A stretch of 61,954 bases of DNA, from contig JALHOE010000027.1 of NCBI GenBank assembly GCA_022843175.1, positions 1-61,954 of the forward strand, read 5' to 3'. Source of the DNA: Deltaproteobacteria bacterium (GTDB lineage: Bacteria > Myxococcota_A > Polyangia > Polyangiales > JADJMO01). The position numbers and the translations under genes are program-made. This document shows positions 10,072 through 29,995 of this stretch, one piece after another (position 1 is the first letter of the stretch; the number at the start of each line of letters is the position of its first letter). The notes under the pieces were generated by a model. The model saw nothing but the letters and a program-made list of their open reading frames with translations. It had not been told where the DNA came from and ran no database searches.

Positions 10072-10107
10072 GAAGGTCGCTACGTACCGACCACTATGGA
10101 GGATCCC

Positions 10108-10611
10108 ATGAAGAAGACCCCGGCCTCTCGAAGCTTTGCAGCAGGACTCGTCGCGATGGCGGTCGTCATCGCTGGTTGCGGCAGCGACAGCAAGGACTCG
10201 GGCGGCCCTGAGCTCCGGAGCGGAATGGACAAGTCGCGCTCGGCGCTCGTCGTCGTCGACCGCGGCATCGCGGCGTTCCGCGCGGGCGACCGGAGCACCG
10301 CGATGGCCGAAATGGAGAAGGGCATGTCGATGATGACCGAGAGCATGGGCGAGATGCGGGCCGGCCTCGGCATGATGTCGATGGAGATGATGAACGGCTG
10401 TGGCGGCACTCGGGACGGGATGATGCGGCCGCTCGAGGGCGGCGTCGCCGAGATGCGCGCGGGTCACTCAATGATGATCGACGACGACGCCGCCAATGAC
10501 GGTGCGGCGCTGGCCCGTATGGAGAAGGGCCGGAAGGGCACCGAGGACGCGATGAACGCCATGGGCGGGACGATGTCGTGCATGGGCCACGGCTCCATGG
10601 GCATGATGTGA
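10108..10611 (+). CDS. Methionine-rich lipoprotein, probable periplasmic copper-binding protein
   Basis: Predicted 167-aa lipoprotein with lipobox VIAGCG (Cys at about residue 24). The mature part carries about 26 methionines, many in MxxM, MM and MxM patterns (for example MAEMEKGMSMM, GMMSMEMM, MGHGSMGMM), plus two Cys and two His. Such Met/His arrays bind Cu(I) in CopC/PcoE-like and CusF-like proteins. It has no recognisable domain beyond helical heptad-like spacing. The ATG is preceded by GGAGG and by a good sigma-54 promoter, and two operators lie upstream. A copper sponge or chaperone role at the envelope is inferred. Confidence 0.8.
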   Translation: MKKTPASRSFAAGLVAMAVVIAGCGSDSKDSGGPELRSGMDKSRSALVVVDRGIAAFRAGDRSTAMAEMEKGMSMMTESMGEMRAGLGMMSMEMMNGCGGTRDGMMRPLEGGVAEMRAGHSMMIDDDAANDGAALARMEKGRKGTEDAMNAMGGTMSCMGHGSMGMM

Positions 10612-10673: not shown

Positions 10674-10690
10674 GTGACCCGAAGGGTCAC
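10674..10690. promoter_or_regulatory. Palindromic operator, copy 6
   Basis: GTGACCCGAAGGGTCAC, perfect six-base arms. It sits between the Met-rich gene and the terminator of the minus-strand peptide gene. It is about 260 bp downstream of that peptide's -24/-12 promoter and 340 bp upstream of the oxidoreductase at 11029; sigma-54 activators can work from either side. Confidence 0.75.
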
Positions 10691-10752: not shown

Positions 10753-10893
10753 CTAACGACCTACGCTATGACGAGCGATCGAGTCGCCGCAGTGGCGAAC
10801 TGCCGGGGAATCGCCGCAGTGGCTGCCCCGGACCTTCGCCGAACGTCGGCGGACCTTCACGTTCTTCAACTGGATGGAACCGAGTCTCTTCAT
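10753..10893 (-). CDS. 46-aa peptide with RHCGDS repeats (novel peptide family, locus 1)
   Basis: Short gene not matching any family I know. The leader is basic (residues 1-23, with NVKVR at 11-15 and AK at 19-20). The C-terminal half has two copies of HCGDS (H25-S29 and H34-S38) with a 9-residue period and a degenerate third copy (RHSVG, 41-45). The leader and repeat are shared with the 50-aa peptide at 21621-21773. There is no signal peptide, so the product is cytoplasmic at first. Support for a real gene: a GAGG ribosome site 5 nt before ATG 10893, a well-matched sigma-54 promoter at 10945-10960, and a strong terminator directly after the stop. Either a Cys/His copper ligand or a precursor peptide that is modified and exported. 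Confidence 0.75.
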   Translation of the reverse strand: MKRLGSIQLKNVKVRRRSAKVRGSHCGDSPAVRHCGDSIARHSVGR

Positions 10894-10944: not shown

Positions 10945-10960
10945 AGCAAGTGTAATGCCC
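10945..10960 (-). promoter_or_regulatory. Sigma-54 (-24/-12) promoter of the 46-aa peptide gene
   Basis: On the minus strand GGGCATTACACTTGCT fits GGCAC-N5-TTGCT with correct GG-N10-GC spacing (GG at 10959-10958, GC at 10947-10946). The predicted start near 10934 leaves a 41-nt leader before ATG 10893. Confidence 0.7.
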
Positions 10961-11028: not shown

Positions 11029-12387
11029 ATGAGCGCTTGGGATGTCCTCGTCGTCGGGGCTGGCCCGGCGGGCACGATCGCGGCGGAGCGTCTGATGGCG
11101 CTCGGCCATCGCGTGCTCTTGCTCGATGCGGGCCCGCGGCTGCGCGAGGGGGAGCGCACGCCCGAGGTGGATCGACGCGCGTGGGCGTATCGCGCGGTCG
11201 GAGGCTCGTTCGATTGGTACCGCGTGCGCGCCGTGGGTGGCCGGGCGCATCTCTGGGGAGGATGGTCGTATCGCTTTCCGGATGTCGTGTTCCGGCGCGG
11301 CGGGTGGCCCTACGGCGCGTCCGCTCTTGCTCCCTATTACGCGGACGTGGAACGAACGTTGGGCGTCGTCGAGGGCGAGATCGACGATCGGTATCGCCGG
11401 GCGGCGCGCGCGCTCGGCATCCGCTTCGCCGCGAAACGTGGCGCGTTCCGAATTGGCACGAAGACCCGCCGCCTGTGGACCCCGCTTGCTCAGCGAGCCG
11501 CGCGTAAGGCGCTTTGCTACCGTGCGGCGCTGCACCTCGAACACTCCGCGCGACGTGCCGACGCGGTTGCCGTGCTCGACCTCAGGCGCGAGGTTCAAAG
11601 AAGCCTTCGCGCACGTGCGTTCGTGCTCGCGGCCTCGCCGGTGGAGACAGCCCGCATTCTCCTGGACAGCGACGTGGGACCCCGCGGTCGACGCATCGGT
11701 CACGGGCTCGTCGATCACATGGTGGCGAGCTGGCTGTTGCTCGAACCTTCGCCGGTCCCTGCCGCGACAGCGGAGAGAGGGCCGTTTCCCGGCTCGGTTC
11801 TGGCGCACGGTCTGGTGAACACCGGCCCGGACGATCGGGAGTCGTATCCGGGCGGCGTCTCGATCGAGGTCAGCGGGCCGCTGCCATTGGAGCCGCTCGG
11901 GGTCGAACGGATGGTCCCCAGCGGCGAGGTCGACCGCTGGTCGGCGACGCAAATACATGCGATCGGCGAGATGTTCCCGTACGCAAAGCGCTACGTCGAT
12001 CTCGATCCCGCCGAACGCGATGCGCTCGGTCGGCGCATCCCGCGGATCCACCTTGCGTGGTCTGCAGCCGAACGGCGGATGGCGGCCGACATGCGCCGCG
12101 CGTGCGTGGCGCTCGCGGACGCGATCGCGGTCCCGGGCAGTAGGCTCGTTCCCTTCCTCGATCCACTGCAGCCGGGAGCAGGACATGAGGCAGGTACCTG
12201 CGCGATGGGGCTCGACGAAGCGTCGGTGTGCGACGCCTTCGGACGATTGCGCGCGCTCGAGAACGTGTGGATCGCCGACGCGTCGGTGATGCCCACGGCC
12301 GGCGATCGGCACCCGACGCTCACGTTGCTCGCCCACGCGCTGCGCGCCGCCGACAACGTCGGTCGCTATCTCGCGCGGGGCGGTTGA
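11029..12387 (+). CDS. GMC-type FAD-dependent oxidoreductase
   Basis: Predicted 452-aa enzyme. The N-terminal FAD dinucleotide fold is clear (DVLVVGAGPAGTIAAERL, residues 4-21), followed by GGRAHLWGG, a usual site of GMC enzymes. The C-terminal domain has AGHEAGTCAMG and VWIADASVMPTAGDRHPTLT, holding the usual catalytic His region. There is no signal peptide. It is shorter than most GMC oxidases (500-600 aa). The substrate is unknown. The gene starts 135 bp from the 46-aa peptide gene on the opposite strand, which makes a role in oxidising that peptide conceivable but unproven. ATG 11029 follows GGGAG; an in-frame ATG at 11014 is also possible. Confidence 0.75.
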   Translation: MSAWDVLVVGAGPAGTIAAERLMALGHRVLLLDAGPRLREGERTPEVDRRAWAYRAVGGSFDWYRVRAVGGRAHLWGGWSYRFPDVVFRRGGWPYGASALAPYYADVERTLGVVEGEIDDRYRRAARALGIRFAAKRGAFRIGTKTRRLWTPLAQRAARKALCYRAALHLEHSARRADAVAVLDLRREVQRSLRARAFVLAASPVETARILLDSDVGPRGRRIGHGLVDHMVASWLLLEPSPVPAATAERGPFPGSVLAHGLVNTGPDDRESYPGGVSIEVSGPLPLEPLGVERMVPSGEVDRWSATQIHAIGEMFPYAKRYVDLDPAERDALGRRIPRIHLAWSAAERRMAADMRRACVALADAIAVPGSRLVPFLDPLQPGAGHEAGTCAMGLDEASVCDAFGRLRALENVWIADASVMPTAGDRHPTLTLLAHALRAADNVGRYLARGG

Positions 12388-12471: not shown

Positions 12472-12488
12472 GTGACCGTCTCGGTCAC
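12472..12488. promoter_or_regulatory. Palindromic operator, copy 7
   Basis: GTGACCGTCTCGGTCAC, perfect six-base arms, 71 bp upstream of the multicopper oxidase start at 12559. Confidence 0.75.
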
Positions 12489-12499
12489 ACGCATTGCGG

Positions 12500-12527
12500 T
12501 TGACCTCCGATGCGTCGGAGGTATGAA
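12500..12527 (+). promoter_or_regulatory. Sigma-70-like promoter with an embedded perfect dyad, upstream of the first multicopper oxidase
   Basis: TTGACC (12500-12505) and TATGAA (12522-12527) are separated by 16 bp. The spacer is a perfect inverted repeat, ACCTCCGA-TGCG-TCGGAGGT. A dyad between -35 and -10 recalls MerR/CueR-type promoters, but those usually have 19-20 bp spacing and a 7-7-7 layout, so the resemblance is partial. Confidence 0.45.
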
Positions 12528-12558
12528 GCCGCGGTTCGCCGTGGGAGGGCTCCGTCCA

Positions 12559-14004
12559 ATGGTTCGATTCGCGGGTCTCGTCTGTATCGCGTTCACCGGT
12601 GTCTTCGTCGCGTGCTCCGCCAAGCACGACGAGACGCAAGTTCCGGCGCAGAGCGCGCCACCGCCTTACGCGATGCCGGCGGTGCTTGGTGTCGATGCGT
12701 TGGAGGATCAGGACCCGGATCCGAACATCGTGGAGGTCTCGATCGTTGCGAGCAGGACGAGGGCCGAGTTCAAGGCGGGCTCGCCGACGACCGTATGGGC
12801 GTACAACGGCACGCTGCCCGGCCCTCTGCTCAAGGCCAAGGTCGGCGACGACGTCGTCGTCCACTTCAAGAACGATCTCGCCGAGCCCACGACCATCCAC
12901 TGGCACGGTCTCCGGATCTCCGATCAGATGGACGGCTCGCCGCGCATCCAGAACCCCGTCAAGCCCGGCGAGGAGTTCACGTATCGCTTCAGGGTGCCCG
13001 ACGCGGGATCGTACTGGTACCACCCGCACGTGAAGACGGACGTACAAGTCGAGAAGGGCCTCTACGGACCGCTCGTCGTCTTCGACCCGAAGGACCCGGT
13101 CTACGACGGCGAACGCTTCCTCGTCATCGACGACATCCGCCTCGAGAGCAGTGGTTCGATCTCGCCGTTGAACGGTATGGACTACACGATGGGCGGCCGC
13201 TTCGGGAACACGCTCCTCACGAACGGACGTCCGGCCAACGAGGCCAAGGCAGCCGTCGAGCAGGGCACCGTCGAGCGCTGGCGCATCGTCAATCCGGCAA
13301 ACGCGCGTACGATGGTGCTCGGCGTCGAGGGCGCGAGCTTCCGTATCATCGCCACGGACGGCGGCCTCTTGCCGGAGCCCTACACCACGAGCCGCGTCAC
13401 GGTCGCCGTCGGTCAGCGCTACGATCTCGAGGTCACATACGACCAGCCGGGGCAAGCGAAGCTCATCAACTACGTCTTGTCTCAGGACTCTGCCGGCAAA
13501 GTGAAGGAGGTCCCGGTACCGTCCTTCGTTGTCGACGTGGCGGGGAGCGCCCGCGCGCCTCGCGCGATCGCCTGGCCGAAGGTGAAGCAGCCCGATCGCC
13601 CGGCCGACACGAACGCGACGATGACCCTGAATCTGCAGCAAGACGCGGACGGCAATCCCGTGTGGACCATCAATGGCAAAGCCATGGCGATGGACCCGCT
13701 CTTCACGTGGGCGCAGGGCTCGACGGTCCTGCTCACGATCGTCAACAAGATCAAGACGGAGCACCCGTTCCATCTGCACGGGCAGTTCTTCGAGATCCTC
13801 GACGACGCGAGTCAACCAGGCCTCAAGGACGTCGTGCTCGTGCCGTCGGGCGGCACCGTGAAGTTCCGTGCGTACATGGACAATCCCGGCCGATGGATGG
13901 CGCACTGCCACATCCTCGAGCACGCCGAGATCGGAATGATGGGCGAGATCGTCGTCTCGCCAACGCCCGGCGCGCCCGGTCCAGACAACGCCCCGCACGG
14001 ATAA
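12559..14004 (+). CDS. Three-domain multicopper oxidase lipoprotein (CueO/laccase-like)
   Basis: Predicted 481-aa lipoprotein; the signal peptide ends in the lipobox VFVACS. All four copper motifs are present in order: HWHGLRI (about residue 115), YWYHPHVK (about 155), HPFHLHGQFF (about 400) and HCHILEHAEIGM (about 455). It should bind type 1, 2 and 3 coppers and oxidise Cu(I) to Cu(II) at the envelope. There is no large Met-rich insert as in E. coli CueO. ATG 12559 starts the signal peptide with GGAGGG 13 nt upstream; longer in-frame starts exist at 12472 and 12523. Operator copy 7 and a dyad promoter lie upstream. Confidence 0.88.
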   Translation: MVRFAGLVCIAFTGVFVACSAKHDETQVPAQSAPPPYAMPAVLGVDALEDQDPDPNIVEVSIVASRTRAEFKAGSPTTVWAYNGTLPGPLLKAKVGDDVVVHFKNDLAEPTTIHWHGLRISDQMDGSPRIQNPVKPGEEFTYRFRVPDAGSYWYHPHVKTDVQVEKGLYGPLVVFDPKDPVYDGERFLVIDDIRLESSGSISPLNGMDYTMGGRFGNTLLTNGRPANEAKAAVEQGTVERWRIVNPANARTMVLGVEGASFRIIATDGGLLPEPYTTSRVTVAVGQRYDLEVTYDQPGQAKLINYVLSQDSAGKVKEVPVPSFVVDVAGSARAPRAIAWPKVKQPDRPADTNATMTLNLQQDADGNPVWTINGKAMAMDPLFTWAQGSTVLLTIVNKIKTEHPFHLHGQFFEILDDASQPGLKDVVLVPSGGTVKFRAYMDNPGRWMAHCHILEHAEIGMMGEIVVSPTPGAPGPDNAPHG

Positions 14005-15660: not shown

Positions 15661-16116
15661 ATGCTCAGGTACGGGACGCTGATGGTGTTGGTCGCAGCAA
15701 CGGGTTGCTCGAGCACGCATGACCCCTCGACCGAGGGTCACGACGCCGCGCACGACGACGCTCTCGTGGATGGGGGCACGGACTCTCCGAGCGACGACAC
15801 CGGCACGGTGCCGGACACCGGCGGACCGTCGGACGCCCCCTCGGGGAAGCCGGCGACGCCCACGATCACGAACGTGATGCCGATGGCAGGCGCATGGCAC
15901 GTCACGTTTACTGCGAACGACTCCGGGCTCACGAAGATCGAGCTGTGGCGCAGCAACGACGGTGCGGCGGCGACGCTGGTGAAGACCTTCGCAGGGACCG
16001 CAAAAGACTGGCATGACGCCGCCGCGCCCGGGACGACGGTTAAGTACTGCTGGACTGTAAAGACCTTCCGCGGCACCGACGCGTCGGAACCGTCCGCGGA
16101 GAAGTGCAACAAGTGA
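15661..16116 (+). CDS. Small lipoprotein with fibronectin type III-like domain
   Basis: Predicted 151-aa lipoprotein; lipobox VAATGC with Cys at about residue 17. An Asp/Gly/Pro-rich linker runs to about residue 60. A single beta domain follows (TPTITNVMPMAGAWHVTF... ELWRSNDGAAATLVKTF... YCWTVKTFRGTDASEPS), typical of fibronectin III-like folds. The first gene of an operon with the two-domain multicopper oxidase, whose ATG overlaps its TGA (TGATG at 16114-16118). The exact role is unknown. ATG 15661 was preferred over GTG 15652 for its AGAAGG ribosome site and position at the signal peptide. Confidence 0.7.
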   Translation: MLRYGTLMVLVAATGCSSTHDPSTEGHDAAHDDALVDGGTDSPSDDTGTVPDTGGPSDAPSGKPATPTITNVMPMAGAWHVTFTANDSGLTKIELWRSNDGAAATLVKTFAGTAKDWHDAAAPGTTVKYCWTVKTFRGTDASEPSAEKCNK

Positions 16117-17039
16117 TGCGACGCGCCCTCGTCTTCGCGTGTCTCGTTGCGCTCTCGGCTTGCAACGGCGAGAAGGAATCGGCCTCGGTCCCGGGAAGCG
16201 GCGTTCGCACGAACATAAAGCGCTATCCGTCGACGGGCGTGACCAAGAAGTTCGAGCTGACGATCTCCGAGTTCGACTGGGAGGTCGCCCCCGGCGCCAT
16301 CTACCAAGCGATTGGCTACAACAAGCGCATCCCCGGCCCCGTGCTTGAGGTGACGGCGGGCGACCGCGTCGAGCTCACGCTCGTCAACGAGACCAAGGAA
16401 CCGCACTCGGCGCACACGCACATCGTCGAGTTCGATACGAACAGCGATGGGGTCAAGGGCGGCGTCGCGCCCCCCGGTGGCCGCGTCACGGTCGTGTGGA
16501 ACGCTTCGTTCGCGGGAACGTTCCCGTACCACGATCACGCAGGCGGCAGCGAGGGCGAGTCCGGCGGGCTGACCGCGGGGCTCGTCGGCGCGCTCGTCGT
16601 CCATCCGCCGGACGACAAACCAGACGTGTTCCACGCAGTCGTGCTCATGGACATGGACCTGACTCGCTACAAGTCCATCCCTGGCACCGCCGACGACGCG
16701 GGCACGATCACCGACGGTGAGTTCCGGGGCGGTCACGGCTTCATGCACACGCTGAACGGTCGCGCTTACGAGGAATGGGTGCCGCCCTTCACCGCGAAGG
16801 TTGGCCAGAAGGTTCGCTGGGGTGTCGTGAGCATCGGTCGCGAGTTCCACACATTCCACGTCCACGGTCATCGTTGGATCGGGAACGACGGGGTCATGAC
16901 AGACAACATCAACCTCGGCCCCGGAACGTTCTCGTCGTTCGAGTGGATCGAGGACAACCCCGGTACATGGCTGGTGCACTGCCACGTGCCAGACCATATG
17001 GAGGGCGGAATGATCGGCCACTACGAAGTGAGCCGGTGA
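16116..17039 (+). CDS. Two-domain multicopper oxidase lipoprotein (small-laccase type)
   Basis: Predicted 307-aa lipoprotein (lipobox LSACN), the length of two-domain multicopper oxidases, which act as trimers with copper sites between subunits. Copper motifs: HSAHTHIVEF (about residue 95), FPYHDHAG (about 135), EFHTFHVHGHRW (about 250) and HCHVPDHMEGGMIGHY at the end. The domain order resembles small laccases and nitrite-reductase-related oxidases. The ATG overlaps the stop of the preceding lipoprotein gene. After its TGA the same frame stays open for 85 codons and encodes a Cys-rich stretch; see findings. Expected to work with the other two oxidases in periplasmic Cu(I) oxidation. Confidence 0.85.
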   Translation: MRRALVFACLVALSACNGEKESASVPGSGVRTNIKRYPSTGVTKKFELTISEFDWEVAPGAIYQAIGYNKRIPGPVLEVTAGDRVELTLVNETKEPHSAHTHIVEFDTNSDGVKGGVAPPGGRVTVVWNASFAGTFPYHDHAGGSEGESGGLTAGLVGALVVHPPDDKPDVFHAVVLMDMDLTRYKSIPGTADDAGTITDGEFRGGHGFMHTLNGRAYEEWVPPFTAKVGQKVRWGVVSIGREFHTFHVHGHRWIGNDGVMTDNINLGPGTFSSFEWIEDNPGTWLVHCHVPDHMEGGMIGHYEVSR

Positions 17040-17951: not shown

Positions 17952-19472
17952 TTACTTCACGACGCGGATCTCGGACATCATCCCGCGCTCCGAGTGCTCG
18001 GGGATGTGGCAGTGGTACATCCAGCGCCCCGGCTCCTCGTCGAATCGCGCCACGACGGTGACGCTGAACCCGCTGCGGACCGTGACCGAGTCCTTCTGCG
18101 CCTGCGCCATCAGCTCGCGACGGAGCGCGAACGGCTTCTTCACCGGATCGAACAGGTCGTCGCTGTCGACGATTTGAAAGAAGAAGCCATGCAGATGGAA
18201 CACGTGGATCTGATGGCTGACGTTGTGGATCTTGAACGCCCTCGTCTCCCCGAGCTTGACCTCGATGGGCGGGATGTCGCCCCCGGCCTTCTTGTTGATC
18301 ACGAAGATCGGGTCGCCGTCCTTGCCGACGATCGGATCGTGCTCTTCCGGCGGTAGCGTGTACCCCTCGGGGCCGCCCTGCGTGCCCTGATCGAACTCGA
18401 TCAACGTGGGCTCACCGGCGGGCACAGGGATCCGGGGGATCGCCACGCCCGGCAGCGTGTCCGGCAGCGCGCGACCCGACACGCTCGAACCGATCTTCAT
18501 CTTCAACACGGTCACGGCGGGCTGCGGCGCGTCGTCCTCGGCGCGCTCGAAGGCATCGCTGGTGAGCGGTAGCTCCTTGCCCACGGCACCGTTGGGAATG
18601 AGCAGCGCGTCGTAGCGCTCGGACGGCCCGATGAGAATGTGCGTCGCTTCGTACGGCTTCTCGAACAAGCTGCCGTCGGTCCCGATGACCCGGAACGTAT
18701 GGCCCCGCACCGTCAGGTTGAAGTAGCGCAGGTTCGCGGTGTTGAGGAGCCGAAAGCGATGGATCGCCCCCGACTGCACGACGAGCGAACGATCGGTTCG
18801 TCCATTCACGAGCAACGTGTCGCTCCATCGTCCGTGCAACTTGAGGTCGAGCGGGAGCTGCGCGTAATCGTCGAGATCGGGCGGGAGCGCGCCGTCGGCC
18901 TGCAGCCTCACGTCGTCGAGCACGAGGACGTGCTCGTGATCGACGCGGGGCTCGCCGGGTCCGCGCACGCGGATCACGCCATAGAGGCCGCGCTCGATCT
19001 GTGTGTCGGAACGGTGGTGTGGATGGAACCAGAAGAGGCCGGGATCGCGGACGACGAACGAGTACTCGAACGTCCCGCCGGGCATCACCGGGTTCTGCAC
19101 GACGAGCGCGCCGTCCATCGAGTTCGGGAGCCGCAGCCCGTGCCAGTGGATCGTCGTCGCCTGCGGGAGCTCGTTCTTGAAGTGGATGACGAGGCGCGTA
19201 CCGACGGCGACGTCGATGAACGGGCCGGGGACTGTACCGTTGTAGGTCCAAGCCGCGGTTTTCTTGCCGGGCGTGAGCTCCACCGTCGCGACCTTGGCCA
19301 CGAGGTCCATCTCGAACACCCCCGGGTCGGGATCCTTGTCGGTCGCAGACGTGATTCCCGGGTTGTCGTCGAGCACCGGCGCCTGCTCGGGTTCGCGGGC
19401 GGTGCAGCTCGACGCCATGACGACGACGAGCGAGACGAGCAGAGCGACGACCCGAAGCCACATCAGCCGCAT
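17952..19472 (-). CDS. Three-domain multicopper oxidase lipoprotein (second three-domain copy)
   Basis: Predicted 506-aa lipoprotein (lipobox ASSCT). Copper motifs are HWHGLRLPNSMDG (about residue 110), FWFHPHHRSDTQIERGLYG (about 145), HVFHLHGFFFQI (about 425) and HCHIPEHSERGMM near the end. The domain layout equals that at 12559 but the sequence differs clearly, so they are paralogues and not a recent copy. It is probably co-transcribed with the thioredoxin-like gene at 19545-20300 (72 bp gap) under operator copy 11. It converges on the selenoprotein gene with 4 bp between stops. ATG 19472 or ATG 19463 may be the start. Confidence 0.87.
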   Translation of the reverse strand: MRLMWLRVVALLVSLVVVMASSCTAREPEQAPVLDDNPGITSATDKDPDPGVFEMDLVAKVATVELTPGKKTAAWTYNGTVPGPFIDVAVGTRLVIHFKNELPQATTIHWHGLRLPNSMDGALVVQNPVMPGGTFEYSFVVRDPGLFWFHPHHRSDTQIERGLYGVIRVRGPGEPRVDHEHVLVLDDVRLQADGALPPDLDDYAQLPLDLKLHGRWSDTLLVNGRTDRSLVVQSGAIHRFRLLNTANLRYFNLTVRGHTFRVIGTDGSLFEKPYEATHILIGPSERYDALLIPNGAVGKELPLTSDAFERAEDDAPQPAVTVLKMKIGSSVSGRALPDTLPGVAIPRIPVPAGEPTLIEFDQGTQGGPEGYTLPPEEHDPIVGKDGDPIFVINKKAGGDIPPIEVKLGETRAFKIHNVSHQIHVFHLHGFFFQIVDSDDLFDPVKKPFALRRELMAQAQKDSVTVRSGFSVTVVARFDEEPGRWMYHCHIPEHSERGMMSEIRVVK

Positions 19473-19544: not shown

Positions 19545-20300
19545 TCAGTCCGCGGCGGCGTCGGCCGGTGCCGCCCCCGCGTCCGTCGCCATTCCGCTGT
19601 CCGTCGAGGTTCCCACATCGGCGCTCGTCCCCGCGTCCGTCGCCAGCGGCGGCGCTCCGTTCTTGGTCAGCATCGAGCTCAGAGCGGGGATCGTCGTCGC
19701 ATCGGGGTTCACGCCCTGAATGATGCGATAGACCTTCATGTCGCGCGGGTTGATCACGTAGTTGTAGGGCAAGCCGACGCTACCGCTCGATGGTAGCGTC
19801 TGCGGCTCGTCATCGAGGACGATGTCGAAGTTGAGCTTGTAGGCGGTGAGCCACTGGTCGACCGTGAGCTGCGTCGCGGGGTTTCGCTTGTTGTCCTGAA
19901 TCATCGCGGTCGCGAATCGCGCACCGCGCGGGCGATAGAGGCGGTCGAGCATCCCCGGCAGGATCTTCGCCTCCTCGCGGCAAGGCGGGCACCACTGGGC
20001 GGACACGACCCAGTAGATGCCGTTGATCCCGCGCGTGCCGTCGGGATCGTAGTAGTCGATCATCGAGATGTCGGTCCACTCGCCCTTGCCGTCCTTGTAC
20101 CCCTTGAACGAGAAGTTCGGGAACGTCTCGCCCACCTTCAGCCCGTAGGGGCCCTCCGGATACGTGAGCCACGGCGCGGTGTCCTCGACGGGCGCGGTGT
20201 CCTCGACGGGCGCGGCGGAGTCGGCAGCGACGGCTGCGTCCTTGGGTGAGCTACACGCGTTGAGCACGAACATGCAGCCGACAGCAGCGAGACGTTTCAT
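19545..20300 (-). CDS. TlpA-like thioredoxin-fold lipoprotein
   Basis: Predicted 251-aa lipoprotein (lipobox LNACSS). Redoxin domain with VGETFPNFSFKGY, then the active site VSAQWCPPCREEAK (Cys pair near residue 108) and a later cis-Pro region (GLPYNYVINP). A low-complexity Asp/Ala/Thr tail follows from about residue 215. It probably reduces or isomerises disulfides, or protects Cys of envelope copper proteins. It is the Cys-containing relative of the candidate selenoprotein at 17252. ATG 20300 follows a GGAGGAG ribosome site. Operator copy 11 is 93 bp upstream. Confidence 0.82.
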   Translation of the reverse strand: MKRLAAVGCMFVLNACSSPKDAAVAADSAAPVEDTAPVEDTAPWLTYPEGPYGLKVGETFPNFSFKGYKDGKGEWTDISMIDYYDPDGTRGINGIYWVVSAQWCPPCREEAKILPGMLDRLYRPRGARFATAMIQDNKRNPATQLTVDQWLTAYKLNFDIVLDDEPQTLPSSGSVGLPYNYVINPRDMKVYRIIQGVNPDATTIPALSSMLTKNGAPPLATDAGTSADVGTSTDSGMATDAGAAPADAAAD

Positions 20301-20392
20301 GAGAGCTCCTCCGCGACGCGTCGTTCGTCCCACGAATCACCACGTTCGTCCAGCCGCGCCTCGTCGGCAGGTTCAAGTTCCCGGGGAGCACC

Positions 20393-20409: not shown

Positions 20410-20603
20410 GCGGATTCCGGGAAACCTCGGCGGTGAGTGCCAGTGCACGCAAGGACGAGCCAGTCTCTTCCATACGTGACGTGTAATGGCCGACGGGGCG
20501 CTACGTCTTCTCCATCGAGCGGCCACGCCCACCGGCTTGCCGAATCGTCGATCGATACCGCGTGTCTTTGTGGACGTACCCCGTAGAAGGAGATCGCAGT
20601 CGA

Positions 20604-21377
20604 ATGCTCCCGTACATCGCTCAGCCGCAGATCGTTCTCGGACCGCTCACGATCTACGCCTTCGGCGTACTCGTCGCGATCGCGGTGCTCGTTGGAACAG
20701 AGGTGGCGCGACGCCGCGCAGCGCGCATCGGGCTCGCCGCCGGTGAGATCGACCGCATGCTGACCTGGGTCGTGGTCGGGGGCTTCCTCGGCGGGCACGT
20801 GCTCGATCTGCTGCTCTACGAACCGCGAGCGCTCCTCACCGATCCCTTCCGACTGCTTCGGCTCTGGGATGGGCTTGGATCCTTCGGCGGCTTCGTCGGC
20901 GCAGTGGCGGGCGCGGGGCTCTTCATCTGGCGTCGGCAGCCGGTGCGCCCCTGGCGTCACGTCGACGCGATCGCCTACGCCTTTCCTTTCGGCTGGATCT
21001 TCGGTCGAATCGGCTGCGCGCTCGCGTTCGATCACGTCGGGCGGCCCACCGACTTCGTGCTCGGTCAGGAATATGTCGACGGCGTCGTTCGGCACAACCT
21101 CGGACTCGAAGAGGCTCTGTACACGATCGGCATCGCCACGCTCTTCGCGGTTCTCGGTCGTCGTCGGCGTCCCGCCGGCTTCTTCACTGGACTCCTCGCG
21201 CTGCTCTACGCGCCGGTACGCTTCGCACTCGATGCGCTTCGCGTCGGCGATGCTCGATACCTGGGCTTGACACCAGCGCAGTACGGCAGCGTGTTGCTCG
21301 CGGTCGTGGGCGCGGTCCTGCTCATCGCGAGCGGTCGTCGCGGAGGGGACGACCGCAGCTCGCTCGCGCCGGCATGA
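20604..21377 (+). CDS. Prolipoprotein diacylglyceryl transferase-like membrane enzyme
   Basis: Predicted 257-aa protein with about seven membrane helices. It carries the Lgt signature GRIGCALAFDHVGRPTD (about residues 134-150), PLTIYAFGVLVA at the first helix and GLEEALYTIG. Lgt attaches diacylglycerol to the lipobox Cys of lipoproteins. The island encodes about ten lipoproteins, so a dedicated second Lgt is plausible; the genome should have its main lgt elsewhere. The start ATG 20604 follows AGAAGGAG; an ATG at 20562 is further upstream. Operator copy 11 lies about 195 bp upstream. Confidence 0.8.
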   Translation: MLPYIAQPQIVLGPLTIYAFGVLVAIAVLVGTEVARRRAARIGLAAGEIDRMLTWVVVGGFLGGHVLDLLLYEPRALLTDPFRLLRLWDGLGSFGGFVGAVAGAGLFIWRRQPVRPWRHVDAIAYAFPFGWIFGRIGCALAFDHVGRPTDFVLGQEYVDGVVRHNLGLEEALYTIGIATLFAVLGRRRRPAGFFTGLLALLYAPVRFALDALRVGDARYLGLTPAQYGSVLLAVVGAVLLIASGRRGGDDRSSLAPA

Positions 21378-21560: not shown

Positions 21561-21606
21561 GAACGAAAAGACGATGCCCCCGTTCCTTTCGGTGCGGGGG
21601 CATCGT
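21561..21606 (-). terminator. Intrinsic terminator of the two-peptide operon
   Basis: On the minus strand a 12-bp stem (ACGATGCCCCCG / CGGGGGCATCGT, 21571-21606) is followed by CTTTTCGTT. It starts 14 bp after the stop of the 50-aa peptide gene. The remaining gap back to the Lgt-like gene (21378-21560) shows nothing else. Confidence 0.85.
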
Positions 21607-21620
21607 GCAAGGGCCGCTTG

Positions 21621-21773
21621 TCAGCCGCGAGCCGGCGAATCGCCGCAATGCCGAAGCATCGGCGCATCACCGCAGTGGCGCATCGTGGGAGAATCGCCGC
21701 AGTGACGCAGACGCGTCTTCGCTGCAGGACGAACCTTCACGTTCGTGATCTTCGTCGTACGGAGAGCTTTCAT
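21621..21773 (-). CDS. 50-aa peptide with three RHCGD(S/A)P repeats (novel peptide family, locus 2)
   Basis: Second gene of a two-peptide operon. Residues 1-23 form a basic leader (KIT-NVKVR at 8-15, AK at 18-19). Residues 23-47 hold three copies of RHCGDSP or RHCGDAP with an exact 9-residue period (Cys 25, 34, 43; His 24, 33, 42), then PARG. Leader and repeats match the 46-aa peptide at 10753. No signal peptide or known domain. Support for reality: shared repeat and leader, coupling to the upstream peptide gene (14-nt gap), a strong terminator after it and a near-perfect sigma-54 promoter in front of the operon. Cys/His pairs next to Asp suit soft-metal binding or post-translational modification. 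Confidence 0.78.
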   Translation of the reverse strand: MKALRTTKITNVKVRPAAKTRLRHCGDSPTMRHCGDAPMLRHCGDSPARG

Positions 21774-21787
21774 GGGGGTGTTTCCGA

Positions 21788-21865
21788 TCAGCAGTTGCAG
21801 AAGAACCCGCAGGCTCCGCCGCAGAACTTGCAGTTGGTCTCACGGATACGGACACGAATCTTCAT
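21788..21865 (-). CDS. 25-aa five-cysteine peptide
   Basis: First gene of the two-peptide operon. The basic leader KIRVRIRETN is followed by a glycine/phenylalanine core with Cys at 12, 15, 19, 23 and 25 (CxxC, CGFFCNC). It has a very strong ribosome site (GAGGAGG, 21873-21879) 7 nt before ATG 21865 and a sigma-54 promoter at 21931. No secretion signal. The size and Cys density recall tiny metallothionein-like Cu(I) ligands or a RiPP precursor. I know no named family for it. Confidence 0.72.
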   Translation of the reverse strand: MKIRVRIRETNCKFCGGACGFFCNC

Positions 21866-21930: not shown

Positions 21931-21946
21931 TGCAAGGCGAGTGCCC
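21931..21946 (-). promoter_or_regulatory. Sigma-54 (-24/-12) promoter of the two-peptide operon
   Basis: On the minus strand GGGCACTCGCCTTGCA is an almost exact match to TGGCAC-N5-TTGCA (GG 21946-21945, GC 21933-21932). The predicted start near 21920 leaves a 55-nt leader. Operators lie directly upstream at 21971-21987 and 22076-22092; a further half-site GGTCAC (21951-21956) abuts the promoter. Confidence 0.8.
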
Positions 21947-22075: not shown

Positions 22076-22092
22076 GTGACCGTTTCAGTCAC
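22076..22092. promoter_or_regulatory. Palindromic operator, copy 13
   Basis: GTGACCGTTTCAGTCAC, about 130 bp upstream of the two-peptide promoter. The stretch 22093-22315 between copies 13 and 14 has open frames on both strands but no ribosome site or recognisable protein; I call no gene there. Confidence 0.7.
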
Positions 22093-22315: not shown

Positions 22316-22332
22316 GTGACTCGGTCGGTCAC
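22316..22332. promoter_or_regulatory. Palindromic operator, copy 14
   Basis: GTGACTCGGTCGGTCAC, 60 bp upstream of the NHL-propeller lipoprotein gene at 22392. Confidence 0.7.
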
Positions 22333-22391: not shown

Positions 22392-23549
22392 ATGAACAGC
22401 TCTGCCCTCGCGATTCTGATCTCGGTGTGTTCCGTGATGCCGGTGGCTTGCGGCGGGACCGCACAGACGCCGCCGACCGGCGGCAACAACGTGACCGCGG
22501 ACGCCGCACCGATTCGCGCGCCGCAGCTCGGCGACGGAACTCTCGGGTCCGTGACGCTAACGGAGATCGTGGGCCCATCGGCGCGACTCCTGACGCCTCG
22601 CGATCTCGCCTTCAATCCCTTGCGCCCGAACGAATTGTGGGTCGTGAACTTCGCCGACGACAGCATGGTGATCGCCTTCGACGTCCTCGCCGATCCGATC
22701 GCGACCGAGCGCCGCAAGGACGCAGCGGCCAATCACTTCATGGCGAAACCGTCGTCGCTCGCCTTCGGTGCGCCGGAGACAACCTTCGGCATCCCTGGCA
22801 CGTTCGCGACCTGCCAGGAATCGCGGAACACCTACGATGACAAGGCCGCGCCGAACGACTTCATGGGACCGGCGCTGTGGTCCTCGGATCTGTCGGTCTT
22901 CGCGAAGAAGAACCCGAACGGGCTGGGTTCCCACCTCGACATGCTGCACAACAGCCCGTTGTGCGTTGGCATCGCGCACGAGAGCGCGAACATCTATTGG
23001 ACGTTCGCCGGCCGAACGAACTCGATCGTCAAGTACGACTTCGGCAAGGACAACGACATTGGCCTGGACGACCACTCCGATGGTTCGTCGTGGCGATACG
23101 GCTACGGCCTCTTCAAGTACGAACCCGGCGTTCCCGGTCATCTCGTGTTCGACGCGACCGACGCGATGCTCTACATCGCCGACACGGGCAACGGCCGGAT
23201 CGCGAAGCTCGACACCAAGAGCGGCACGGTCGGGCGCAAGCTTTCACTGAAAGAGGAGAACGCGCTGTACGTCGAGATGACCGGCGCAACGATCACCGAC
23301 GTCGTGCCGGGAGGCGGTGACCTGCAAAAGCCGTCCGGCCTCGAGCTCCGCGACGGCTACCTGTTCGTCTCCGACAGCGCCACGTCGAAGATCACGGCGT
23401 TTACTCCAAGCGGAGAGCGCGTCAACCAGCTCGACACCGGCCTCGAGCCCGGCTCGCTCGCCGGAATTGCCTTCGGTCCCGGCGGAAAGCTGTACTTCGT
23501 TGACGTGAAGGGCAACCGAGTCTTTCGCGTCGACGTGACACCGCGCTGA
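22392..23549 (+). CDS. NHL/beta-propeller lipoprotein
   Basis: Predicted 385-aa lipoprotein with lipobox PVACGG. The body is a beta-propeller of NHL/six-bladed type, with blades such as PRDLAFNPLRPNELWVVN, GHLVFDATDAMLYIADTGN and LAGIAFGPGGKLYFVDVKGN. It also has two long insertions and a Cys pair (TFATCQES and SPLCVG). This is the second propeller lipoprotein of the island, unrelated in detail to that at 2008. Function unknown; it may hold a periplasmic metal or redox partner. Operator copy 14 lies 60 bp upstream. Confidence 0.72.
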   Translation: MNSSALAILISVCSVMPVACGGTAQTPPTGGNNVTADAAPIRAPQLGDGTLGSVTLTEIVGPSARLLTPRDLAFNPLRPNELWVVNFADDSMVIAFDVLADPIATERRKDAAANHFMAKPSSLAFGAPETTFGIPGTFATCQESRNTYDDKAAPNDFMGPALWSSDLSVFAKKNPNGLGSHLDMLHNSPLCVGIAHESANIYWTFAGRTNSIVKYDFGKDNDIGLDDHSDGSSWRYGYGLFKYEPGVPGHLVFDATDAMLYIADTGNGRIAKLDTKSGTVGRKLSLKEENALYVEMTGATITDVVPGGGDLQKPSGLELRDGYLFVSDSATSKITAFTPSGERVNQLDTGLEPGSLAGIAFGPGGKLYFVDVKGNRVFRVDVTPR

Positions 23550-25052: not shown

Positions 25053-26279
25053 CTACGGGGACACCGGTCGCGTCCGCCAGAGCCACGGAAACAGGATGGC
25101 CGCGCCTGCAGCGATCGCGGCGTAGAGCGCCGCAGACATCGCGATGGCGTAGCCGAAGTGCCCCCCGCCTGCGGCGAGCAGCGGTCCGGCCAGCCAGGTT
25201 CCCGCCGCCCAGGTGATCGAGCTCCCAACGATGCCCAGTCCGGCGACTGCCTCGCCGTCACGGTCGAACGAGACCTCTTGGAAGAAGGCGTTGAGCAGCG
25301 GCGACGAGGTCGCCGACAACGTGTACCTCGCGACGAACGCCGCCGCGGCGAAGTAGATGTTCGTCGCGCGCGCCAGTTCGACGAAGAAGGGCAGCGTCAG
25401 GAGTTGTAGCAGCACGATGGTTCGCGGCAGACCGAATCGACGCGACGCCCACGGGACGATGGCAAACGCGACCGTTCCGATGGCCATCATGGCGGCGTAG
25501 AGAAACGCGATGCCTTGCAGGGGCACGCCGAACGTGACCTTGAAGTAGAGTTGCAGGAAGGGAATCGTGATCCCTGCGGCGAGCCCGACAAGCCCCTGAA
25601 ACGCGACGCAGATCGCGACACGCCGCGGCCGAGCGACGCGACCGGTGCGCCGTCGCGACTGCACTGGTCCTCCGCGGGAAGCCGCGAACGCGACGGCGGC
25701 GAGCGCACTGATCACGGCGGCAAGCACCAGCGCGATGCGGTGCCCGAGCAACTGCGCGCCCAACAGCGCCGTGACACCCCAGATCGCGACCGCCCCAGCA
25801 AGCCCCGCGACCGGGGTGAGCGCGATGGCATGCAGAGCGAACACGGGTACCCGCTCGTCGTCTCGAGTCAGCGCCTTGAGCGCAGGCGGGGCGATTGCGG
25901 TGTTCAGCTGAATCGCGAGGCCAGCGACCCCCGCGCCGATGAAGAACGCCGCTGGCGCATGGGAGAACGCTTGCATCGCGAAACCGACCGCTTGCACGGC
26001 GGCACACGTCGCAAAAGCCACATGCATCGACGTGCGCGGAACGATGAGGGTCGCGAAGACCCCGGAGAGGACGCCCGCGATGGCGCCGGTCGCCTGCACG
26101 GCGGGGATCGACGCCGTTCGCCACCCGAGCTCGGCGAGGAACGGGTTGCGCGCGACGACGAACATCTGCTGCCCGGCGCCGAGGAGGAGCGTTGCGATGA
26201 GTAGCGCACGGACCGGGCTGGACGTGCTTCGAAGTACGCGAAGGAGCTGCGCCAACGAACCGACGCGTAGCACGCGCAC
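25053..26279 (-). CDS. Major facilitator superfamily transporter
   Basis: Predicted 408-aa membrane protein with about 12 hydrophobic helices. The loop between helices 2 and 3 reads GVFATLIVPRTS, and the overall Ala/Val/Leu-rich pattern fits MFS_1. No substrate-specific motif is visible. It follows the PepSY gene on the same strand with a 100-bp gap that holds two operator-like palindromes, so it seems separately controlled by the same regulator. GTG 26279 was chosen as the start because it leaves a short basic N-terminus; longer in-frame frames run through the operator. A peptide or siderophore-like substrate is conceivable given the small peptides, without direct proof. Confidence 0.75.
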   Translation of the reverse strand: MRVLRVGSLAQLLRVLRSTSSPVRALLIATLLLGAGQQMFVVARNPFLAELGWRTASIPAVQATGAIAGVLSGVFATLIVPRTSMHVAFATCAAVQAVGFAMQAFSHAPAAFFIGAGVAGLAIQLNTAIAPPALKALTRDDERVPVFALHAIALTPVAGLAGAVAIWGVTALLGAQLLGHRIALVLAAVISALAAVAFAASRGGPVQSRRRTGRVARPRRVAICVAFQGLVGLAAGITIPFLQLYFKVTFGVPLQGIAFLYAAMMAIGTVAFAIVPWASRRFGLPRTIVLLQLLTLPFFVELARATNIYFAAAAFVARYTLSATSSPLLNAFFQEVSFDRDGEAVAGLGIVGSSITWAAGTWLAGPLLAAGGGHFGYAIAMSAALYAAIAAGAAILFPWLWRTRPVSP

Positions 26280-26307
26280 CGGCCGACCACTCGCTCGAGA
26301 TCGCTGA

Positions 26308-26324
26308 GTGACCGCGCCGGTCAC
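26308..26324. promoter_or_regulatory. Palindromic operator, copy 16
   Basis: GTGACCGCGCCGGTCAC, perfect arms, 29 bp upstream of the MFS start. A degenerate copy (GTGACCGAACCAGGCAC) is at 26348-26364. Confidence 0.7.
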
Positions 26325-26382
26325 CTTTTCGCGAGGCTCGGGTGGCAGTGACCGAACCAGGCACGCCCCCGACAAGAGCCGC

Positions 26383-27138
26383 CTACGAGGCGTCGGCGGA
26401 AGGCGACGACCGTCGTGCCTGCCGGTTGCCCAGGCGGAACACTTGCAGGATGAGGCCCGTAAGTGCCGTCGCGATCGCCAGCGCGCTCGCGGCAGTGATC
26501 AGCGAGTGGTTGTAGCTCTCGCGCTGTCTGTAGTCCATCACGTGGAGCATCCAAAAGAAGTCGTGAAGCCTCCACCGCGCGTTCCGGCGAGCAGTGATCT
26601 CGCCTGTGGAGGCGGCAAGATAAATGTGCGGCGCCTTTGCGTGGTTGAACGACACCTGGAATACGGGCAGCGGCTTGCCGCGATACTCGAGCGGCGGATC
26701 GCGATCGATGCGCCGCACCGACGCGACAGCGGCAGCTGGACTGAAGTCGAGCCTTGCGAGTGCGACGGCCTCGTCCTCCGTGATCTCCTTCCGAACCGCA
26801 CCGGTCGCTGCATCGACGGCGCAGAGTGGCTTGTCCTTCGCGTCGTAGAGATCGTAGACCGCGTGCCCGAGGCGCAGCTGTAGAACGACGCGTGCCGCCT
26901 CGCCGCCGCACTGAGCTCCGCGCGCGAGCGCTTCGCGCGCCTCGATCCCGACATCCGTCGTTCGGAGGATCGGCCGGGGCTCGCGAAGACGCTCTCGTTC
27001 GCCGCGGACGTCATCCAGCGAGAGGAGGCTGAACGCGAATCCGCCGACGCTCCATGCCAGCAACTGAACACTGATGACGAGGCCGATCCAGCGGTGCGCG
27101 AGGTAGAACCACGCGCGCAGCGTTCGCCGTCGACTCAC
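26383..27138 (-). CDS. PepSY-domain membrane protein
   Basis: Predicted 251-aa inner-membrane protein. An N-terminal helix (FYLAHRWIGLVISVQLLAWSVGG) and a C-terminal helix (around ITAASALAIATALTGLIL) bracket a periplasmic part with PepSY-like repeats (AVYDLYDAKDKPLCAVDAATG... EALARLDF). WRLHDFFWMLHVMDY before the last helix is typical of PepSY_TM proteins, which include ferric or cupric reductase-like relatives; its His residues could bind haem. GTG 27138 overlaps the regulator stop (GTGA). It ends the operon cupredoxin - kinase - regulator - PepSY. Confidence 0.78.
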   Translation of the reverse strand: MSRRRTLRAWFYLAHRWIGLVISVQLLAWSVGGFAFSLLSLDDVRGERERLREPRPILRTTDVGIEAREALARGAQCGGEAARVVLQLRLGHAVYDLYDAKDKPLCAVDAATGAVRKEITEDEAVALARLDFSPAAAVASVRRIDRDPPLEYRGKPLPVFQVSFNHAKAPHIYLAASTGEITARRNARWRLHDFFWMLHVMDYRQRESYNHSLITAASALAIATALTGLILQVFRLGNRQARRSSPSADAS

Positions 27139-28508
27139 GGCTTCCCCCGGTACTCGCCCGGGTTGATCCCGTGCTTGCGACACAGCCGATAGAAGCTCTC
27201 GCGCTCCACGTCGGCATGCTCCGCTGCGGCCACGACGTTACCGCCGAAACGCGCCAACAGCGCCTCGAGGTACCGCTTGATCCCGTCGGCACGCACATGC
27301 TCGAGTGCCTCGCGGTAGGTCAACGCCGCAGGATCGATCGGCGGCTCCACGTGCTCGGGAGCGAGGCCCGTGATCTCCGCGGGAAGATCCGCGCGCACGA
27401 TGACGCCGTTCTCGGCGAGGATGGCCGCTCTCTCGATCGCCCCCTTGAGCTCGCGGACGTTGCCCGGCCACCGATGCTGGGTCAACGCGGCCAGGGCGTC
27501 CGGCGCAACGCGATAGGTAACGTCGTTCGACGAGCTACGTTCAGCAAGGAAGTGCTCGACGAGCACGGGCAGCTCGTCGATACGCTCCCGCAACGCGGGC
27601 ACCCGCACGACACACGTATTCAGGCGGTAGAAGAGGTCTTCGCGGAATGCTCCCTGCGCGACGAGCGATGGAAGGTCGCGGTGCGTCGCTGCCACGACAC
27701 GGACGTCGACCGGACGCTCATGACTCTCGCCGACGCGACGAACAGCACGAGCCTCGAGCGCGCGGGTCAGCTTGGCCTGTAGGGCCCGGCGCATCTCTCC
27801 GATTTCGTCGAGAAACAACGTGCCTCCATGAGCCTCCTCGAAGAGTCCCGCGCGCTGCGCGGCCGCACCCGTGAATGCGCCCCGTGCGTGGCCGAACAAC
27901 TCCGCCTCCATCAGCGAGCCTGGAATCGCGGCGCAATTCACCGCGACGAAGGGCCTCGTACGGCGCGCGCTGATGTCGTGGATGGCGCGTGCGAGAAGCT
28001 CCTTGCCGGTACCGCTCTCGCCAAGAATCAGCACCGTCGCCTCGGTCGGGGCAACCTTCTCCACCAACCGGATCACATCGAGTATCGGTGGGGAGCGGCC
28101 GACGATCCCATGCCAAGCGGCGCCCTCGGGAGTCACGATGCGCGGTGCGTGCTTGGCGAAAGCACGTTGGACGACCTCGCGGAGCTGATCCGGATCGAAC
28201 GGCTTTCGCACATAGTCGAAGGCTCCGTCGCGGAGGGCCTCGATCGCGCTATCCATGCTTCCGAACGCGGTCGTTAGAACGACCTCCGGCGGGCGGTCGA
28301 GCTTACGTGCCACGCGGAGCACCTCGTGACCGTCGACGTCTGGCATTTTGATGTCGGTGACGACGACGTGAAATCTCATTTCGGCCAGGAGCTCCACGGC
28401 GCGGCGGCCGCCCTCAGCCTGCACCACCTCGCCAAGGTCTTGCAGCGTCGTTCCCATCAGCCGCCGCATGTTGGGCTTGTCGTCGACGACCAAGATTCTC
28501 CGATTCAT
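27135..28508 (-). CDS. Sigma-54-dependent response regulator (NtrC family)
   Basis: Predicted 457-aa transcription factor. Receiver domain (residues 1-120) with LVVDD, the phospho-acceptor in [12 protein letters not shown] and conserved Lys in YVRKPF. AAA+ domain (about 140-380) with Walker A GESGTGKE, the sigma-54 contact loop GAFTGA and Walker [13 protein letters not shown]. Fis-type helix-turn-helix at the C-terminus ([24 protein letters not shown]). It starts by ATGA overlap with the kinase gene, so they form a two-component pair. It is the only sigma-54 activator in the window and the best candidate to bind the 17-bp palindromes (fitting size and symmetry for a Fis-HTH dimer). No operator copy lies directly upstream of its own operon. 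Confidence 0.9.
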
Positions 28509-29995
28509 GACAATGCTCCTGCATGAGGTAGCCGGACCACGACCGACGTGCCGGCGCCGCGGGTGCTGTCGATCTCGATCGAGCCACCGTGCGTGCGCAC
28601 AATTCCTTGCGACACGGCGAGTCCGAGCCCGGTGCCACCCGAGCGGCGTGAATAAAATGGCTCGAAGACATGAGCGAGATCGGCGGCGTCGATGCCCGCG
28701 CCGTGGTCGCGAACGACGATGCACACGTTTTCGGCGTCGGCGCTCACCGAGACGTCGATGCTCTCGTCGCGCGGCGAAGCGAGAACCGCGTTGAGCACGA
28801 GGTTGCGAACGACCTGCGCGATCCGTGTGGGATCGACCTGCGCGTGGACATCCGTCTGCGCGCTGACCTCGACGGCGTGTCCCTCCACCTCCGGAATGGA
28901 GCGCATGCGCTCGCAGACGTCGCGAACCAACGCGCCGACGTCGGCGTCCACCTTCTCGAGGCGTGGCTCCCGCGCGAACGTCACCAGGTCCTCGACGATC
29001 CGCCGGCACTGCTGGGCCTCGTCGTCGACGATCTGGATCTCCTCGGCGATTTCGCCTTCTAGCGAGTGCCTTCGCAGTCGTTTCAGGTAACCAAGGATGA
29101 CGCCCAGCGGGTTGTTCAACTCGTGCGCGACACCCGCCGCGATGGCGCCCACGGTCGCCAGGCGCTCGGCTTGGAGCACGCGTCCCTCGCGTTCGCGTAG
29201 GCGCTCCGCCATCTGCCGCAGACCGCGCCCGAGTTGGTCGAACTCCCAGGTTCCGAGACGCGACACCGTAGCGCTGAAGTCGCCATGACCGATGCGCGCC
29301 GCCGCCGCGTTCAGAGCTCGAACCGGCGTGACGATCTGCCCGGCGAAACCGATAGCGAGAAGCAGCGCGACGACACCGGCGATCGATGTCGCGATCGCCG
29401 CGACCATGACCGCGCGACGAACGCGTATGGTCGCCGCCGATGAAGCTTCCCGCGTGCGCATCGAGAGCTGCGCGACCGACGCGTCGGACGCGCTGATCAT
29501 CGCCTCAACGCGAATCTCGGCTGCGACGTGCGCCTTCCGCATGCGCACGTCGTCCTTCGAGAGCGCTGCGGGCAATATCTCGTCTGCGAAGACCTTGCTC
29601 AGTGCGACGCTGTCCGACTGAATCGTTTCGAGGCGCTGGCGCTCGGGCCCGTTCACGAGCGGCCGCAGGTGCTCGATATGCTGCGAGAGCATCTCGGCCC
29701 AATGCCGCTCGTGCCCGAGGTGTTTGACGTCGCGGAGGAGCACACCGTGCGAATCGTGCATGTACTGCTCGCGAGCCGCGACGCCGATGGCGACTGCGTG
29801 CCGTTCCGCCGCCGCGAGCGCCGACGTGTGTTCGATGGCGCGGTACGCGCTGACGAGCGCGCTGATGCAGAGTCCGACGGCAAGAGCCAGCACCGCGAAC
29901 AGAGCGCCTATGCCGAGCCAGATTCGAACCGCCAGACGCTCGCGGGCGCGAACGGGCCACCCTGACAACGGCGCGGGCGCGTCGACGACGCTCAC
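28505..29995 (-). CDS. Sensor histidine kinase with His-rich extracytoplasmic domain
   Basis: Predicted 496-aa inner-membrane kinase. TM1 at about residues 28-50 and TM2 at about 192-215 enclose a periplasmic domain whose first half is His-rich (YMHDSHG, VKHLGHERHW, HIEHLRPL), suited to metal sensing as in ZraS-like kinases. A HAMP linker, HisKA (AAGVAHELNNPLGVILGY) and HATPase follow (N-box VRNLVLNAVLAS, G1 DHGAGID, FEPFYSRRSGGTGLGLAV). GTG 29995 overlaps the cupredoxin stop, and its own TGA overlaps the regulator ATG. Expected to phosphorylate the sigma-54 regulator in response to copper or a similar ion; the ion itself is inferred from the island. Confidence 0.88.
   Translation of the reverse strand: MSVVDAPAPLSGWPVRARERLAVRIWLGIGALFAVLALAVGLCISALVSAYRAIEHTSALAAAERHAVAIGVAAREQYMHDSHGVLLRDVKHLGHERHWAEMLSQHIEHLRPLVNGPERQRLETIQSDSVALSKVFADEILPAALSKDDVRMRKAHVAAEIRVEAMISASDASVAQLSMRTREASSAATIRVRRAVMVAAIATSIAGVVALLLAIGFAGQIVTPVRALNAAAARIGHGDFSATVSRLGTWEFDQLGRGLRQMAERLREREGRVLQAERLATVGAIAAGVAHELNNPLGVILGYLKRLRRHSLEGEIAEEIQIVDDEAQQCRRIVEDLVTFAREPRLEKVDADVGALVRDVCERMRSIPEVEGHAVEVSAQTDVHAQVDPTRIAQVVRNLVLNAVLASPRDESIDVSVSADAENVCIVVRDHGAGIDAADLAHVFEPFYSRRSGGTGLGLAVSQGIVRTHGGSIEIDSTRGAGTSVVVRLPHAGALS

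Follow-up and report, generated by a model that had tools for sequence, protein, structure and literature searches.

Short Cys/His-rich peptides of a bacterial copper island usually adjoin a GMC flavoenzyme and look like raw material for copper-binding peptides

We analyzed a 61,954-nt stretch of a Deltaproteobacteria genome (the window; GCA_022843175.1, contig JALHOE010000027.1), in which two short ORFs on the minus strand form a peptide operon (Table 1). The first encodes a 25-mer with Cys at positions 12, 15, 19, 23 and 25, and the second a 50-mer whose units begin at residues 23 (RHCGDSP), 32 (RHCGDAP) and 41 (RHCGDSP), a period of nine. Both ORFs had been proposed in the initial annotation, together with a ribosome-binding site, a sigma-54 promoter and a strong terminator, and each of these elements is confirmed here. 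The Shine-Dalgarno sequence CGAGGAGG lies immediately 5' of the first ATG of the operon, the promoter has the GG/GC spacing of 10 that is correct for sigma-54, and the hairpin 3' of the 50-mer folds at -31.4 kcal/mol (z -3.9), with no entry in the list of a simple terminator scan. The pattern GGCAYN5TTGCW occurs twice in the whole window, each time 5' of a family peptide gene, against 0.26 matches expected. Antisense ORFs that overlap the operon were discarded and attributed to GC-rich DNA, and an Rfam search of the window returned zero matches.

Table 1 Coordinates of the peptide genes, regulatory sites and neighboring genes in the window (G, genome; C, contig; C1a, a region of contig C1 in the same genome)
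Feature	Position	Strand	Remarks
CusC/CusB/CusA-type efflux system	3148..9129	+	CusA at 5785-9129
Met/His-rich lipoprotein	9910..10611	+	ends CMGHGSMGMM; start probably near 10105
Palindrome GTGACN7GTCAC	10674..10690		about 200 bp downstream of the start codon of the paralogue at 10753-10893
Paralogous peptide MKRLGSIQLKNVKVRRRSAKVRGSHCGDSPAVRHCGDSIARHSVGR	10753..10893	-	homologous to the 50-mer
Sigma-54 promoter of the paralogous peptide	10945..10960	-	matches GGCAYN5TTGCW
GMC (FAD) oxidoreductase	11029..12387	+	constant partner of the peptides
Multicopper oxidase	12472..14004	+	
Multicopper oxidase/cupredoxin-type protein	16104..17039	+	
Multicopper oxidase	17952..19472	-	
Redoxin (AhpC/TSA) lipoprotein	19545..20333	-	syntenic in C1a; found in G146
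lgt	20562..21377	+	converges on the peptide operon
Terminator hairpin	21571..21606	-	3' of the 50-mer
50-aa peptide MKALRTTKITNVKVRPAAKTRLRHCGDSPTMRHCGDAPMLRHCGDSPARG	21621..21773	-	three RHCGD(S/A)P units
25-aa peptide MKIRVRIRETNCKFCGGACGFFCNC	21788..21865	-	NC(K/R)FCGGxC motif
Sigma-54 -24/-12 promoter GGGCACTCGCCTTGCA	21931..21946	-	before the 25-mer/50-mer operon
Palindrome GTGACN7GTCAC	22076..22092		candidate enhancer for the response regulator; precedes the sigma-54 site by 130 bp
Second palindrome GTGACN7GTCAC	22316..22332		separates the operon from the divergent NHL lipoprotein gene
NHL/Vgb-like beta-propeller lipoprotein	22392..23549	+	divergent; syntenic in C1a; found in G260
MFS transporter	25053..26375	-	beside the two-component genes
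PepSY/PepSY-TM protein	26383..27183	-	
NtrC-type (sigma-54) response regulator, CorR-like	27135..28505	-	PF00158, PF00072, Fis-type domain
Sensor histidine kinase, CorS-like	28505..29995	-	HAMP/HisKA

The operon is embedded in an island of efflux, multicopper oxidase and lipoprotein genes. The best PDB match of its CusA component is CusA itself (1024 bits vs 458 for ZneA). Third-codon-position GC is about 0.72-0.90 in most genes of window positions 1-31300 vs mostly at least 0.9 elsewhere in the window, as if the island had a different history. Within the island we noticed no RRE domain, YcaO, MNIO, radical SAM enzyme or dedicated protease. An lgt gene lies near both 25-mer/50-mer operons of this genome, the second copy in the C1a region at about 75990-76770 of contig C1. 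Outside the island, at 50896-51462, the window holds an ORF with SVVPESVV tandem repeats.

The two peptides belong to a family that comprises at least 14 loci from eight genomes. The genome of the window (G000) has five genes of the 50-mer type, located in the focal operon, at 10753-10893 of the window, at C1:73670, at C1:118890 and at C229:10617, and two 25-mers. The C1:73670 peptide is 90% identical to the focal 50-mer and is likewise preceded by a 25-mer (C1:73577, 92% identical to the focal copy). A genome of the same genus (G001) adds three family genes, one of which encodes four RHCG units with a six-residue period. Every peptide pair points to purifying selection despite small counts: dN/dS is 0.22 between the two 25-mer copies, 0.26 between the two 50-mer copies and 0.16-0.28 over all pairs tested. 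Across an alignment of 15 rows the basic head (MKxLR...NVxV) is conserved, and the tail, built of RHCGxx and/or NC(K/R)FCGGxC units, varies in repeat number and spacing. This is the layout of a ribosomally made precursor with a conserved leader and a variable core, the head being the presumptive leader. Each peptide contains two to six Cys and two to five His residues, and no signal peptide was seen in any of them.

Homologues in two other genomes combine the two motifs. The G193 peptide (MKIETMLKVGARVKVLQVKGDLAQELRLRGIRHCGTDLRPVEPATNCRFCGGDCDGLH) carries an HCG motif and a full TNC(K/R)FCGGxC match in a single chain, and the G009 peptide (MSKIQSILAAGARVKVAAAKAGLVRELRARGLHHCGDLRPIDPSPVCRFCGEDCDGLH) unites the 50-mer's HCG motif with the 25-mer's C(K/R)FCGxxC motif; among all DNA fetched for the analysis, C[KR]FCGxxC is confined to family members. 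Because these chains fuse RHCG with NC(K/R)FCGGxC, the window operon may be read as the split form of a two-motif precursor, which would explain the 25-mer and the 50-mer as its halves.

Neither peptide matches a Pfam or NCBIfam family, curated metallothionein families included. Searches with peptide profiles alone recovered members at the genus level, with weak, short and partial matches in other genera; one profile match, in G199, proved spurious on checking. A DNA pattern for triple RHCG, run over the genome contigs, gave listed matches that were mostly out of frame or of low complexity, with one recognized family member among them. In G039 (C101) and G006 (C122), the last residues of a Cys-rich, SPASM-like ORF read ...VQIRRPGAKVAREEAVPVTPSARHCGD, which resembles the peptides' head plus RHCGD with a marginal score; the radical SAM link in these two genomes (ORF ending ...RRPGAKVAREEAVPVTPSARHCGD) is also marginal (E 0.002).

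The family's constant partner is a GMC oxidoreductase. The enzyme in the window belongs to this superfamily by both Pfam domains (GMC_oxred_N, 28.3 bits vs a cut-off of 23; GMC_oxred_C, 65.7 vs 24.6) and retains both catalytic-site His motifs (HEAGT and HPTLT). No signal peptide was seen in its sequence, and because that sequence starts directly at the FAD motif the enzyme is probably cytoplasmic, like the peptides. Three peptide genes of the genome adjoin a GMC gene. A search of 57 relatives found five close GMC homologues (three in the genome itself, one each in G001 and G004), all with a peptide no more than 1.3 kb away. We then extended the search class-wide to 318 genomes (E<1e-50 to 1e-60), which gave 13 loci, 11 of them informative once the two cut by contig ends (G020 and G002) were set aside. 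At 10 of these 11, a short HC-rich peptide is encoded within 1.3 kb of the GMC gene, usually as the next gene. Six loci in other genera were discovered with the enzyme as bait; because the peptide profiles had missed these members outside the genus, the association acted as a real prediction.

In G004, G146, G190, G260, G193 and G009, the peptide gene is directly followed by the GMC gene in the same orientation. The order in G004 is kinase, regulator, peptide (MKILSKKSARKVVVSSIAARLGARHRGHVRHCGVLRHCGAVRHCGQLG) and GMC enzyme; the peptides upstream of the enzyme in G146, G190 and G260 are MKLLTRKRLVNVTPANGPRLPARSTERLHCHRHCHRHCGRA, MKLLKSTKCKNVEVAPLRRAARPGHCRIQARVVRCCKIHCCK and MSTANLFPKPRIQVVSLKPELARTSSRLPCCGQLKHCGHLQHCGHLRNRAR, respectively. 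At the locus that does not fit, in G307, a different Cys peptide (MKKNASRK...GCNPCHTPHGP...) is encoded divergently from the GMC gene; this leader-like peptide (MKKNASRKANALNEKEVTDLKIKKLTIRSGVKAAAGCNPCHTPHGPL...) lies at about 2930-3150 of contig C72, plus strand. HC-rich short ORFs, as defined by a filter drawn up after the members were known, are rare: in 259 kb of fetched loci there are nine, all of them family members, and in 825 kb of background sequence that had been chosen for RHCG repeats there are 10. An adjacent GMC gene is absent from both 25-mer/50-mer operons (the focal one, whose island has its GMC gene about 9 kb off, and its C1 twin) and from G001 C12. The association holds for the one class in which we tested it; a draw of 379 genomes from the phylum gave no further loci, and plasmids yielded no homologue of the enzyme.

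Other neighbors recur as well. MFS homologues adjoin peptide and GMC genes in G001 C46, G260 and G193, and orthologues of the kinase and regulator adjoin peptides in G001 C210, a peptide locus that runs to the contig edge, G004 and G009. None of the genes within about 10 kb of the G190 locus is a copper gene. In G001 C12, a C-terminal fragment of a sigma-54 regulator (10126-10464) lies upstream of the peptide. A sigma-54 site with a score of 22 precedes five of the 14 peptide genes, with a P of about 0.002 (0.0023) for each per 140-nt upstream stretch; the remaining nine loci have no convincing site, G004 perhaps excepted. The palindrome GTGACN7GTCAC has 63 sites in the 9.75-Mb genome, 18 of them on contig C1 and 11 exact ones at window positions 208-31275, that is, in the 31-kb island; these palindromes would mark a copper regulon in the window island and on contig C1. 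Three peptide genes have one at a similar offset after the start codon (+203 for 10753-10893 in the window, +212 for C1b and +206 for G001 C210).

Several known systems resemble parts of this arrangement. In the CorSR/curA copper regulon of Myxococcus xanthus (PMC3707914), a cluster that includes multicopper oxidase and lipoprotein genes answers to a histidine kinase and its sigma-54 response regulator. The window island likewise joins a histidine kinase and a sigma-54 regulator, with sigma-54 sites before target genes, to multicopper oxidase and lipoprotein genes. Neither a Cys/His peptide nor a GMC enzyme is listed in the curA table passage of that paper, and the GTGACN7GTCAC palindrome of the window regulon may be a further difference. 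From the gene neighbors and the regulatory sites, we expect the peptides to be induced by copper. The initial annotation had suggested a new class of copper-induced Cys/His peptides; its novelty and copper link hold up well (no Pfam or NCBIfam match, repeat-bearing homologues in this and other genomes, promoters of the sigma-54 type, a location in a copper island, a regulator like CorSR), with induction itself still a prediction. It had not included the GMC partner, the homologues with both motifs fused, or the other paralogues, one of which lies in the window too.

Many copper-chelating ribosomal peptides described to date are MNIO products. The MNIO (DUF692) copper RiPPs, namely methanobactin, the bufferins and Buf_EGKCG/oxazolins (PMC12452194), share with our family short Cys-containing precursors, a link to copper stress that is predicted here, a repeated Cys motif (EGKCG theirs, RHCGxx here) and a gene for an oxidative enzyme next door. 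Unlike them, the peptide loci have no MNIO and a GMC flavoenzyme instead, the peptides have no signal peptide that we could see, and their motifs, RHCGxx and NC(K/R)FCGGxC, include no EGKCG or bufferin-type signature. Maturation by an MNIO was considered and rejected, the PF05114 genes of G000 (two) and G001 being on contigs other than those of the peptides. Within the genus, MNIO genes were seen at loci L039, L043, L034, L040 and L044, some beside CKGQ- or SCG-type Cys-rich proteins.

A GMC oxidoreductase is also tied to a ribosomal peptide in mycofactocin biology, where MftG re-oxidizes the finished cofactor (PMC11778925). MftG is the best NCBIfam match of the window enzyme (E 2.5e-20), at 72.9 bits, far below the family cut-off of 387.45, and among the fetched loci we noticed no gene of the mycofactocin system. 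With hydroxymethylfurfural oxidase (HMFO) and other GMC oxidases the window enzyme shares the superfamily and the His pair; its PDB matches are weak (best E 4.5e-16; HMFO 3.5e-9), and its candidate substrate is a peptide. HMFO can oxidize thiols (PMC8140971, citing Ewing 2014). Bacterial metallothioneins and the Csp copper storage proteins (PMC10612145, PMC5171941) are cytoplasmic Cys-rich metal ligands, a role that is predicted for our peptides; unlike those proteins, the family has HC dyads in tandem repeats, a GMC partner and no Pfam match, and its members are too short for the Csp four-helix bundle. The family is undescribed in Pfam, NCBIfam and the literature searched, which lies largely outside the subscription journals and does not describe the peptide/GMC pairing either.

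The sequences show a family under purifying selection, with strong sigma-54 sites at five of 14 loci, that is associated with GMC, MFS, Cus, multicopper oxidase and two-component genes. We slightly favor the reading that the peptides are copper-induced, RiPP-like precursors that would be modified by the GMC enzyme and then serve as a Cu(I) ligand, either in the cell or after export. The same peptides could instead serve unmodified, as a cytoplasmic Cu(I) buffer of Cys thiolates and His resembling a minimal metallothionein, with the GMC gene a mere neighbor in the regulon. We think this unlikely while giving it real weight: the Cys and His content, the lack of a visible signal peptide, the copper island, the stress promoter and the 25-mer/50-mer operons without a GMC neighbor are what it would predict, whereas a conserved head is superfluous for a simple chelator and the peptide adjoins the GMC gene at 10 of 11 loci in several genera, often as the next gene. 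The initial annotation had allowed for a direct buffer or a matured, exported peptide; the choice is tilted to maturation because the GMC flavoenzyme is a constant partner and the MFS transporter a frequent one.

Tight linkage, with the peptide first and the GMC enzyme second, would also suit a peptide that assists the enzyme (as a subunit responsive to metal or redox state, an inhibitor or an electron acceptor) rather than being its substrate, but stand-alone operons without GMC, multiple paralogues and the expansion and contraction of the repeats make this improbable. Still less probable is an exported antimicrobial or signaling peptide that came to be set in a metal island and binds metal incidentally; the precursor-like head and tail and the MFS transporter beside three loci are compatible with it, but the peptide genes share the palindrome and sigma-54 control with the copper genes, and CusA and multicopper oxidases adjoin peptides in several genera. 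As for chance ORFs in GC-rich DNA, a thought prompted by the tiny size and the overlapping antisense ORFs, we give it almost no credence: paralogues in the same genome, homologues in other genomes and even other families, and the dN/dS range place the peptide ORFs beyond chance as genuine genes, and promoters and terminators argue the same way. The GMC enzyme, finally, may have a different target within the same regulon.

For the favored reading, GMC-dependent maturation of a copper-binding peptide, we propose the following scheme. Under copper stress, the CorSR-like kinase and sigma-54 regulator, probably acting via GTGACN7GTCAC, would turn on the peptide genes. The products would be ribosomal precursors whose basic head is conserved and whose Cys/His tail varies, and a dedicated cytoplasmic GMC flavoenzyme would most likely oxidize tail residues, perhaps Cys thiols, for example to thiocarbonyl-derived groups. 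The modified tail would bind copper(I), either as a buffer in the cytoplasm or after leaving the cell, with the MFS transporter as candidate exporter. In this scheme the peptide is the inferred substrate of the enzyme, and we put modification by the enzyme, with copper binding as its purpose, at about an even chance. The modification chemistry, the bound metal and the peptide's destination are speculative; Cys oxidation by the enzyme is a guess, chemically possible because GMC oxidases can act on thiols (PMC8140971). A RiPP class in which a GMC maturase oxidizes Cys or its neighbors in RHCG and NC(K/R)FCGGxC cores, yielding copper ligands independently of MNIO, is possible, at somewhat less than an even chance.

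Because they usually lie in a copper-defense cluster beside one flavin enzyme, the peptides resemble starting material from which an enzyme would make a copper-binding peptide. No MNIO is encoded at the family's loci, its genes are too short for the size limits of gene finders, and following the flavoenzyme brought further members to light. If the GMC enzyme does modify the peptide, this would be a new route to metal-binding peptides, and the arrangement of a peptide gene directly followed by the GMC gene in six genomes offers a ready two-gene test system and a searchable marker.
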